Assembly: GCA_009929695.1 (NCBI GenBank)
Contig: RZZW01000002.1
Coordinates: 96,527 to 160,526 of the forward strand
From: Clostridia bacterium
GTDB lineage: Bacteria > Bacillota > Clostridia > Oscillospirales > Ruminococcaceae
Direction: 5' to 3'
Length of the DNA stretch: 64,000 nucleotides
Below, one piece after another: positions 53,386 through 58,399 of the stretch. A program made the position numbers and the translations under genes. The notes beneath the pieces were generated by a model. It searched no databases and was not told where the DNA came from. It saw only the letters and a program-made list of their open reading frames with translations. Numbering within the stretch: the stretch's first letter is position 1; each line of letters starts with the position of its first letter.

Positions 53386-53583
53386 TAAAGAGAGTGTAGT
53401 TGACGAGAGCCCGACACACGTTGCCTGTGGGTGCCTATCTTCGGCAGTTTTCACACTGCGCATTTGTGGCTGGGCAAGGCAATGCCCGCAGCCAATGCTG
53501 ACGCATTAGCAAGGGTATTAACGCAGCGCAGGCGCAAATGCGCACTGTGAAAACCAACGCGGGTCAGGCTCCCGTCAACTAAG
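53386..53583 (+). ncRNA. Candidate structured RNA (class unknown, rod-like)
   Basis: AGTTGACG (53398) pairs with CGTCAACT (53580), closing the whole region. Inside, GTTTTCACA-CTGCGCATTTG pairs with CAAATGCGCA-CTGTGAAAAC, and two hairpins (GGGCA/TGCCC and AATGC/GCATT) fill the end. No ORF or ribosome binding site fits. The long interrupted rod resembles 6S RNA in overall shape, but I cannot match a family by sequence. Confidence 0.6.
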
Positions 53584-53666: not shown

Positions 53667-53837
53667 ATGGCTTTTAAAATTAGTGACGACTGCATCTCCT
53701 GCGGCACATGCGCAGGTGTATGCCCTGTGAACGCTATTGCAGAGGGCGACGGCAAATTCGAGATCGACGCAGACGCCTGCCTCGATTGCGGCACATGCGC
53801 AGGCGAGTGCCCCGTAAACGCAATTTCCGAGGGCTAA
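53667..53837 (+). CDS. 2[4Fe-4S] ferredoxin
   Basis: Missing from the ORF track (56 residues). Two CxxCxxCxxxCP motifs are present: CISCGTCAGVCPVNAI and CLDCGTCAGECPVNAI, the classic clostridial ferredoxin that carries electrons for fermentative enzymes. The start at ATG 53667 follows GGATGGG. A terminator follows the stop. Its leader holds the candidate RNA and pseudoknot. Confidence 0.95.
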   Translation: MAFKISDDCISCGTCAGVCPVNAIAEGDGKFEIDADACLDCGTCAGECPVNAISEG

Positions 53838-53913: not shown

Positions 53914-53977
53914 GGCGTGCCGGGGTCGTCACGCCCTACGAAAACGCACCCCGTAGGGCACGACGACTCGGCGTGCC
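53914..53977. repeat. Inverted REP pair upstream of the RAYT gene
   Basis: GGCGTGCC...CACGCCCTAC (53914-53939) and GTAGGGCACGACGACTCGG...CGTGCC (53953-53977) are two hairpins of one subfamily in opposite orientation, 40 bases before the RAYT start. This paired layout is typical of REP doublets. Confidence 0.8.
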
Positions 53978-54016
53978 GAATAGTTCGCGCAAAATATATA
54001 TTCGGGAAATGATGAA

Positions 54017-54496
54017 ATGGATTTGCCAAAGCGTAAATCAATGCGGCTTCCAAATTATAACTACGGCAGTAACTCCGCATATTTTTTGACTATTTGCACC
54101 AAAAATAAAGCGTGCACACTCGCCGACATCACTCCACAAGGTCATGTGCTTACATCAGCAGGCAAAATCGCCGATAAATATATTTGCTCCATTTCCACTG
54201 CTTATCCGTGTGTCTCAGTTGACAAATATGTCATTATGCCTAATCATATACACATTATTTTGTCAGTATCAAGCGAAAGCGGCGTGCCGGGGTCGTCACG
54301 CCCTACGGAGACAGTGCCTAAAATTGTTGCTGCGTTTAAACGTTTTACAAATAAAGACACCGCGCAAAAATTATGGCAAGACGGATATTACGACCATATT
54401 ATACGCGACGAAAACGATTATTTGATACGTTGGAATTACATCGACACAAACCCCGCGCGTTGGCACGATGACGATTATTATTCTCCACCGCATTAA
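54017..54496 (+). CDS. REP-associated tyrosine transposase (RAYT, Y1 HUH family)
   Basis: 159 residues. AYFLTICTKNKACTL begins the Y1 fold, MPNHIHIILSV carries the HUH metal site, and YYDHIIRDENDYLIRWNYIDTNPARW contains the likely catalytic Tyr and the RAYT-type ending. It lies between REP hairpins of one subfamily, and another copy (54281-54306) is inside the coding frame as SGVPGSSRPT. RAYTs are thought to mobilise REP hairpins. Confidence 0.88.
   Translation: MDLPKRKSMRLPNYNYGSNSAYFLTICTKNKACTLADITPQGHVLTSAGKIADKYICSISTAYPCVSVDKYVIMPNHIHIILSVSSESGVPGSSRPTETVPKIVAAFKRFTNKDTAQKLWQDGYYDHIIRDENDYLIRWNYIDTNPARWHDDDYYSPPH
54281..54306. repeat. REP hairpin inside the RAYT coding sequence
   Basis: GGCGTGCCGGGGTCGTCACG and the following CCCTAC match the upstream REP at 53914 base for base over 26 bases. 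It keeps the reading frame and falls after the HUH motif, in what should be a variable loop. Confidence 0.88.
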
Positions 54497-54506
54497 CACG
54501 CCCCCC

Positions 54507-54531
54507 GTAGGGTACGACGACTCGGCGTGCC
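54507..54531. repeat. REP hairpin downstream of the RAYT gene
   Basis: GTAGGGTACGACGACTCGG followed by CGTGCC, differing from the upstream copy by one base (T for C in the stem, giving a G-U pair). It lies 11 bases after the RAYT stop. Confidence 0.85.
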
Positions 54532-54564: not shown

Positions 54565-55203
54565 ATGAACATCGAAACCCTGCAAAACGGAACTAAAGTA
54601 TTTTGTGAGCCGCCTCATTTTTTTGGGGAGGACGCGCTTTTGCTTGCTGAATTTGCCCGCGTGAAGCCTAGCGACCGCGCCATTGACATTGGCACAGGCT
54701 GCGGCATCATCGCGCTTTACTGGCACGACAGAGGTCACCGCGGCGCGTGCACGGCTCTTGACATAAGCGGCGACGCTATTTCCCTTGTTGAAAGCGCCGT
54801 CAGCGAAAATAGAATTGACCATATATCTCCTATTTGCGCTGATTTGCGCGAATATAAAGCGGACAAGCCGTATGACGTTATGGCATGTAATCCGCCTTAT
54901 TTCCAAAACAGCCCCGCTTCGCAAAACGCACAGCGAGCCGCGGCAAGGCATGAAACCTCGTGCAATATAAACGACGTTTGCGCCGCCGCAAAAAGGCTTT
55001 TAAAAAACGGCGGACGGCTTTGCGTATGCATGAAGCCCGAGCGCCTCGCCGATGTTTTTTGCGCCATGCGTGAAAACAAGCTTGAACCGAAAAAATTACA
55101 GGCCGTGTGCGGCAAAAAAGATTTTGCCCCGCGCCTTTATCTTATAGAAGCCGCCAAAAACCGCGCGAGCGGCCTGACCGTACTGCCGCCGATATTTCCA
55201 TAA
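54565..55203 (+). CDS. trmN6: tRNA1(Val) (adenine37-N6)-methyltransferase-like protein
   Basis: 212 residues. AIDIGTGCGIIALYWHDRG is the SAM motif and MACNPPYFQNSP the NPPY catalytic motif. The start EPPHFFGEDALLLAEFA is typical of the YfiC/TrmN6 family. It is followed closely by rsmI, the usual Firmicute order. Confidence 0.88.
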   Translation: MNIETLQNGTKVFCEPPHFFGEDALLLAEFARVKPSDRAIDIGTGCGIIALYWHDRGHRGACTALDISGDAISLVESAVSENRIDHISPICADLREYKADKPYDVMACNPPYFQNSPASQNAQRAAARHETSCNINDVCAAAKRLLKNGGRLCVCMKPERLADVFCAMRENKLEPKKLQAVCGKKDFAPRLYLIEAAKNRASGLTVLPPIFP

Positions 55204-57853: not shown

Positions 57854-58399
57854 ATAGGGGACGGTGTCCTCGACGTCCCGCTCTTGCAGAGGGCAATAGG
57901 TCCCCCATGATGCGGTTTTTATGGTAAAACAGCAACCTTTGTAGGGGCGAGCTTCGCTCGTCCGTATAGTTTGCACATAATCACGGCTACGGTTCGATGT
58001 GGACATCGACCCATACAAATGTGCCACACTGCAAAGTTGCGCGAAATTGCGGGCGGATATGGAATCCGCCCCTACTACCCTGTAACAGTTAAAACTTTAC
58101 ACAAAAATAATGTTATAAGGTGTCGTTTGTAGGGCAAGGGCTCTGCTCTTGCCGTAACTTACCTCTTGCGGTTGCAGCGGCAAGAGCAGAGCCCTTGCCC
58201 TACGGACAACATTTTGCAGGTTTGCAAAAACGTAAAGTTTTAAGAGTTACAGACTACTACGGTTCGCCGCGAATTAACGGCGGATTGTAGGGGCGCGCAT
58301 TGCGCGTCCGCTTTTGTTTGCACATCACCACGGCTACGGTTCGATATGGGCATCGACCCCTACAAATGTGCCACAGCGCAATTTCGCCGTGCAGCATTT
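57854..58399. repeat. Composite hairpin-repeat array (copy 3), interrupted by a MITE
   Basis: The same module order as 34.15 kb: GGGACGG module, one CTCTTGCAGAGGGCA unit, GTCCCCCATGA spacer, CGAGC/GCTCG, GTCGATG/CATCGAC, GGGCGGAT/ATCCGCCC, then the GCGCGCATTGCGCG module. A 175-base inverted-repeat element (58079-58253) splits it after CCCCTAC. The 560-base gap has no gene. Confidence 0.8.
58079..58253. mobile_element. MITE-like element with 7-bp target duplication, family 1
   Basis: The ends CTGTAACAGTTAAAACTTTAC and GTAAAGTTTTAAGAGTTACAG are inverted repeats of about 21 bases. CTACTAC is present directly before (58072-58078) and after (58254-58260), a 7-base duplication. Inside is an inverted pair of GTAGGGCAAGGGCTC modules. 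It has no ORF and sits within a copy of the composite array. Confidence 0.8.

Follow-up and report, generated by a model that had tools for sequence, protein, structure and literature searches.

What does it mean for a transposase gene to carry, within its own reading frame, a repeat of the kind that its enzyme family acts on? TnpA-REP proteins recognise a GTAG foot together with a single-stranded hairpin, cleave, and probably spread REPs (PMC8266576, PMC6006769). A locus with such a repeat inside a RAYT (TnpA-REP) gene lies in the window analysed here, a stretch of 64,000 nucleotides from a Clostridia bacterium (GenBank assembly GCA_009929695.1, contig RZZW01000002.1). Positions below are those of the window unless another contig is named.

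The RAYT gene and its REPs

The reading frame at 54017-54496 (+ strand) is open throughout and encodes a protein of 159 aa that resembles subclass 2.4 RAYTs. A sequence-only reading of the window had proposed a Y1 HUH transposase with RAYT features, and both the motifs and the predicted TnpA-REP-like fold agree with this. The HUH/Tyr active site is intact, with the HUH motif PNHIH at residues 75-79 (54239-54253), WQ at residues 120-121 (54374-54379) and the catalytic Tyr141 in YIDTNP (54437-54439), all on the + strand; H77, H79, Y141, N145 and P146 are invariant among 65 relatives. The motif pattern of subclass 2.4, NH[IFV]H, WQ and YIxNNP, is present as NHIH, WQ and YIDTNP, in which T replaces the first N.

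The best-fitting profile was the NCBIfam model REP_Tyr_transpos (NF047646; E 1.4e-16, 60.7 bits against a curated cut-off of 80 bits, which is not reached). The IS200 profile scored lower, at 15.2 bits, and Pfam Y1_Tnp gave 21.8 bits against a cut-off of 23. The AlphaFold2 (AF2) model, computed from 65 sequences taken from the window and the surveyed loci, has a mean pLDDT of 89. Its PDB matches are IS200/IS605 and TnpA-REP structures, and the E. coli TnpA-REP bound to its REP hairpin (4ER8) has the highest query TM-score among the significant matches (0.61). The E. coli protein (Y/Z REPs, group 2) shares with the window protein the fold, the HUH-Y1 core and a GTAG-foot hairpin with a stem mismatch, but it is only 19% identical, its group has DHLH, and no in-gene REPs have been reported for it. 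The gene does not fit IS200/IS605, as it has Y---NP instead of Y---Q and a single intact copy; the genome holds one intact RAYT gene and three broken ones that differ from one another, which is unlike a multicopy IS.

Three REPs flank the gene. The two upstream copies are inverted, as the sequence-only reading had stated: one at 53914-53939 (- strand), identical to the in-gene copy, and one at 53953-53978 (+ strand), GTAGGGCACGACGACTCGGCGTGCCG, which belongs to the major genomic type. The downstream copy at 54507-54531 (+ strand), 10 bases past the stop codon, does exist, but as a near-identical variant with one base different in the stem (GTAGGGTACGACGACTCGGCGTGCC). Within the ORF, GTAGGGCGTGACGACCCCGGCACGCC lies on the - strand at 54281-54306 and encodes residues 89-97 (GVPGSSRPT), which form the loop that connects the HUH strand to the following helix. 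The claim that a 26-base REP identical to the upstream copy sits in the coding frame proved correct, and the upstream (-) and in-gene (-) copies even have 29 identical bases in common, GCGGCGTGCCGGGGTCGTCACGCCCTACG.

As single-stranded DNA, each REP folds into GTAG, 6 bp, a purine-purine mismatch and 2 bp closed by a loop of 3-4 bases, and at most 1 in 200 shuffles folds equally well. Copies on opposite strands belong to different but related subtypes, CACG...CGTG and CGTG...CACG. Together, the REP at 53953-53978 and the in-gene copy form an inverted '> <' pair around the 5' half of the RAYT gene.

The RAYT/REP insertion is bordered upstream by a ferredoxin-like gene (53668-53836, + strand) and downstream by a methyltransferase gene (Pfam MTS; 54565-55203, + strand). 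Just upstream of the ferredoxin gene, at 53436-53556, there is also a long imperfect inverted repeat, ttttcacactgcgcatttg ... caaatgcgcactgtgaaaa, which is not a GTAG REP; an Rfam scan of 30000-64000 gave no matches, this repeat included.

REP families in the host and in its relatives

The genome-wide hairpin count proposed in the sequence-only reading yielded 70 copies of the main type, CGTAGGGCACGACGACTCGGCGTGCCG, at no more than 3 mismatches, 33 of them perfect, against 0 in the reversed control. In a sample of 456.5 kb (17% of the genome), GTAGG hairpins numbered 165 versus 10 in the reversed control, many of them intergenic, and formed 16 REP families of at least 4 copies. Neighbours of the same type within 60 nt were arranged '> <' 22 times and '< >' twice in this sample. 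The window agrees with the description of a GTAGGG hairpin family in its host part: all 27 hairpins that passed our filter lie at 34152-58309, and none passed in the first 32 kb (1-32000), the phage-like half. Short tandem arrays of the main REP with a period of 42 were seen at four loci (L003, L004, L030 and L031, on host contigs C1 and C42), near the contig end in C42.

We then asked whether these repeats follow the RAYT. Among 11 congeners, a RAYT match was found only in the host and in one other genome, G603. The generic pattern of the main REP class has 117 copies in the host and 0 in the ten other congeners, and the nine congeners without a RAYT match have 0 copies of the hairpins. Two congeners (G143 and G599) preserve an empty site, in which the methyltransferase gene directly follows the ferredoxin gene with no RAYT and no REP. 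The RAYT of G603, which has one stop near its end, carries GTAGGGGCGGGGCTTGCCCCGCCC at both of the in-gene sites described below. This sequence occurs 33 times in G603, two of these in the RAYT gene, and 0 times in the other ten congeners; the in-gene type thus predicted the genomic REP family of this genome.

In the wider family, the main REP type has 0 copies in 148 other genomes, and of the roughly 141 genomes that gave no good RAYT match, 3 contain the generic bulged pattern. Relatives lacking a RAYT are therefore not equally rich in hairpins; equal abundance there, like a damaged HUH/Tyr active site, would have spoken against the RAYT-REP link. Bulged REPs were found in 26 of 26 genomes with a bulged-type RAYT versus 12 of 24 with another type, where the first figure includes the in-gene copies themselves and the second is blurred by genomes with more than one RAYT. 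In-gene REPs also match the hairpins of their own locus better than those of other loci (0 of 5,000 permutations).

A rival reading would make the hairpins plain terminators, or repeats with no link to the transposase beside which they happen to lie. The intergenic position of many hairpins would suit such a reading, but the cognate match within a coding frame, the GTAG foot and a presence that tracks the RAYT across congeners do not. With the 0 of 148 family genomes, the congener data and G603, it is refuted in the main, and we give it next to no credence.

The three broken RAYTs of the host each have a different in-gene REP type, and the types of those on contigs C36 and C13 are identical to genomic families. 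On C29 the first His of HUH is changed to Gln and the gene is truncated; on C36 (locus L178, G000:C36, about 1660-1690) a frameshift lies at the end of the gene's own site-1 REP; and on C13 (locus L177) a 5' fragment runs into a REP pair. At this last locus (G000:C13, reverse strand, 2183-2258) the fragment is followed directly by a full genomic REP pair of type GTAGGGCAAGGGCTCTGCTCTTGCC, which also occurs at 58129-58203 of the window; it looks as though a REPIN had taken the place of the rest of the gene.

A strict rule of one RAYT to one REP family does not hold for the host genome and was rejected, since most of the 16 families are without a RAYT found here. Copies of these families therefore persist, or move in trans, without a recognisable RAYT of their own. 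Three of these host families without a RAYT have exact counterparts among the in-gene REPs of other species. For families F3, F6, F8, F9, F11, F13, F14, F15 and F16 there is neither a RAYT in the assembly nor an identical in-gene REP in the loci examined.

Two in-gene sites conserved as nucleotides

We collected 85 distinct RAYT ORFs from 80 loci identified through protein similarity and from loci found before, most of the loci being metagenome-assembled. When each gene was compared with its flanking DNA, the matches clustered at just two places. Site 1, some 126 nt ahead of the HUH codon, falls between strand 1 and helix A and carries a REP in sense orientation in 61 of the 85 ORFs, in frame 0 in 60 of these 61. 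Site 2 lies between HUH and helix C, 54-103 nt after the HUH codon, and carries an antisense REP in 73 of the 85, in frame 1 in 63 of these 73. The in-gene REP of the window, real but treated as a local feature in the sequence-only reading, is thus one of two recurrent in-gene sites of a clostridial group. Both sites are occupied in 59 of the 85 ORFs and neither in 10, so that in-gene REPs are non-essential; five hairpins lie elsewhere, and some apparent losses are degenerate copies. With strand and frame fixed, random insertion is disfavoured.

The same two sites emerge when no hairpin criterion is applied: the site-1 interval holds 69 copies of GTAGGG and the site-2 interval 73 of CCCTAC, with one hexamer elsewhere. 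Synonymous codon shuffling within genes lowers these counts to about 8 and about 7, respectively.

The window RAYT has site 2 only. At the position equivalent to site 1 (54113-54140, + strand) there is no REP, the best match to the cognate REP being 13/26. The window locus is a reduced form, in which site 2 has as its '> <' partner the REP that lies shortly before the start codon.

Within one gene, the REPs at site 1 and site 2 have a mean identity of 93%, versus 58% between genes, and 0 of 10,000 permutations reach this mean. Between genes whose cores are 30-60% identical, copies at the same site reach no more than 50-66% identity, which indicates that both copies have changed type together. 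At closer distances the REPs are conserved irrespective of codon position: in 32 gene pairs with 58-81% core identity, which are not independent of one another, codon positions 1, 2 and 3 are 88, 87 and 89% identical within the REPs and 73, 82 and about 47-48% identical in the rest of the gene. This flat profile indicates that the nucleotide sequence is conserved and not the peptide. In the lower stem, changes on the two sides go together (both sides are changed in 47 cells versus 11.5 after shuffling), although the 100% pairing in this analysis is partly built in because hairpin detection demands pairing. Above the stem, 52 of 57 mismatches are G-A or A-G.

Could selection instead act on the encoded peptide, for example on a loop that reads the hairpin, with the DNA match as a by-product? 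The reading frame is nearly fixed at both sites and P96 is nearly invariant, as such a reading would have it. However, conservation is no lower at third positions than at the first two, synonymous shuffling abolishes the pattern, and the encoded peptides differ wholly between REP types. We rejected peptide-level selection on the codon-position data and regard it as very unlikely.

The tree of these RAYTs suggests that in-gene REPs are old and have been lost repeatedly, with 22 changes of state at site 1 and 12 at site 2 on branches of poor support. In the wider Bacillota both sites are present in few loci (L148, L157 and L175) and flanking REPs in most; other loci have site 2 alone or a double-foot REP at site 2. 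Fully palindromic double-foot REPs (GTAG...CTAC) were observed at L156, L159, L164 and L174, from other Bacillota and Spirosoma (flanking only in the latter), and two of them are in frame at the site-2 position. A tblastn search of plasmids gave only six distant matches, among which those from Leptolinea and Spirosoma are without site 1. The clostridial set offers the best evidence for the two-site form.

Taken together, we conclude with good confidence that the window locus is a RAYT with cognate REPs, a REPtron, and that its in-gene REPs are maintained at the nucleotide level.

Possible roles of the in-gene REPs

By analogy with characterised TnpA-REP proteins, the single-tyrosine HUH enzyme would recognise the GTAG foot and single-stranded hairpin of its own REP type and cut there, thereby spreading REPs through the genome. 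In the clostridial RAYTs of this group, the gene carries the cognate REP at one or two in-frame loop sites, arranged '> <' like genomic REP pairs; these copies change type together, and their type matches the REP family of the host genome. We infer from the sequence patterns that through the in-gene REPs the RAYT may target the gene that encodes it, or the transcript of that gene, a proposal to which we give somewhat less than an even chance. Such self-action would tie the specificity of the enzyme to the REP sequence, and might hold down the expression or copy number of the RAYT itself. We also propose, tentatively, that clostridial RAYT genes are oversized REPINs, in which the core serves as spacer of an inverted in-frame target pair; by acting on this pair, the enzyme would couple its specificity to the repeat family, regulate itself and let REP identity be rewritten in gene and genome together.

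The in-gene REPs may alternatively be neutral passengers, two ancestral REPs in surface loops that are inherited with the gene, kept by RAYT-driven or homologous replacement and of no function there. This is a serious possibility, though we would not call it probable. At both sites the loops vary, and the model either gives them low confidence or places them at a hairpin turn; some RAYTs, scattered over the tree, have no in-gene REP; and site-2 insertions were read as having little impact in the main text of Quentin 2018 (PMC6006769). Against this, loss of both sites is uncommon (10/85), the sites are rarely degenerate, codon-position conservation is flat and stem changes are paired. Flanking REPs are not always present, since 40 of 55 two-site genes lack any such REP within 500 bp; they accompany 15 of these 55 genes versus 5 of 7 genes with neither site, as if a pair in cis were wanted.

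The inverted pair could also act in RNA: independently of any binding by the protein, the transcript would fold back on itself, which would limit its stability or the translation of the RAYT. For all 59 two-site genes, minimum-energy folding predicts a duplex of 15 bp or more between the two sites, so that control at the transcript level may be possible. But any inverted repeats would be predicted to pair, the window gene is without site 1, and this reading by itself leaves the need for a cognate GTAG type unexplained; we consider it rather unlikely.

How much of this system is new? The sequence-only reading had suggested novelty on the grounds that the system is clostridial, which is partly right. 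Clostridial members are not discussed in the main text of Quentin 2018, but subclass 2.4 RAYTs with in-frame REPs, generally between HuH and Y, are described there across many phyla, as is a variable insertion region between strand 3 and helix C; by that paper's mapping, subclass 2.4 corresponds to group 4 of Bertels et al. 2017 (PMC6006769). According to the same main text, these RAYTs share with ours NHIH, WQ and YIxxNP, long GTAG REPs and in-frame REPs between HuH and Y. It contains no second site between strand 1 and helix A, no fixed opposed orientations or frames, and neither the joint change of both copies nor the codon-position result. Measured against it, what is new here is not in-frame REPs as such but the two fixed opposed in-gene sites, their joint change and the codon-position pattern in 85 clostridial ORFs.

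Related arrangements are known elsewhere. Pseudomonas REPINs are likewise inverted REP pairs, singly dispersed in genomes that also encode a RAYT (Bertels and Rainey 2011, PMC3116915); unlike there, the body of the RAYT gene is the spacer of the pair in most relatives here. GTAG REPs have been found inside other genes (Di Nocera et al. 2013, PMC3733652). Rickettsia palindromic elements are also palindromic repeats in coding frames, but they occur in many unrelated genes, whereas here the repeat sits in the gene of its own enzyme.

These findings extend the biology of REPs and RAYTs, well documented elsewhere, to clostridia of the gut, where one-sixth of a single genome yielded 16 REP families, and bear on how REP families stay matched to their enzyme and on why REPs sit inside RAYT genes. 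The in-gene copies provide a readable label that names the genomic REP family of each RAYT, as tested on one congener, and through them orphan REP families can be traced to enzymes of other species, as for three families of the host.
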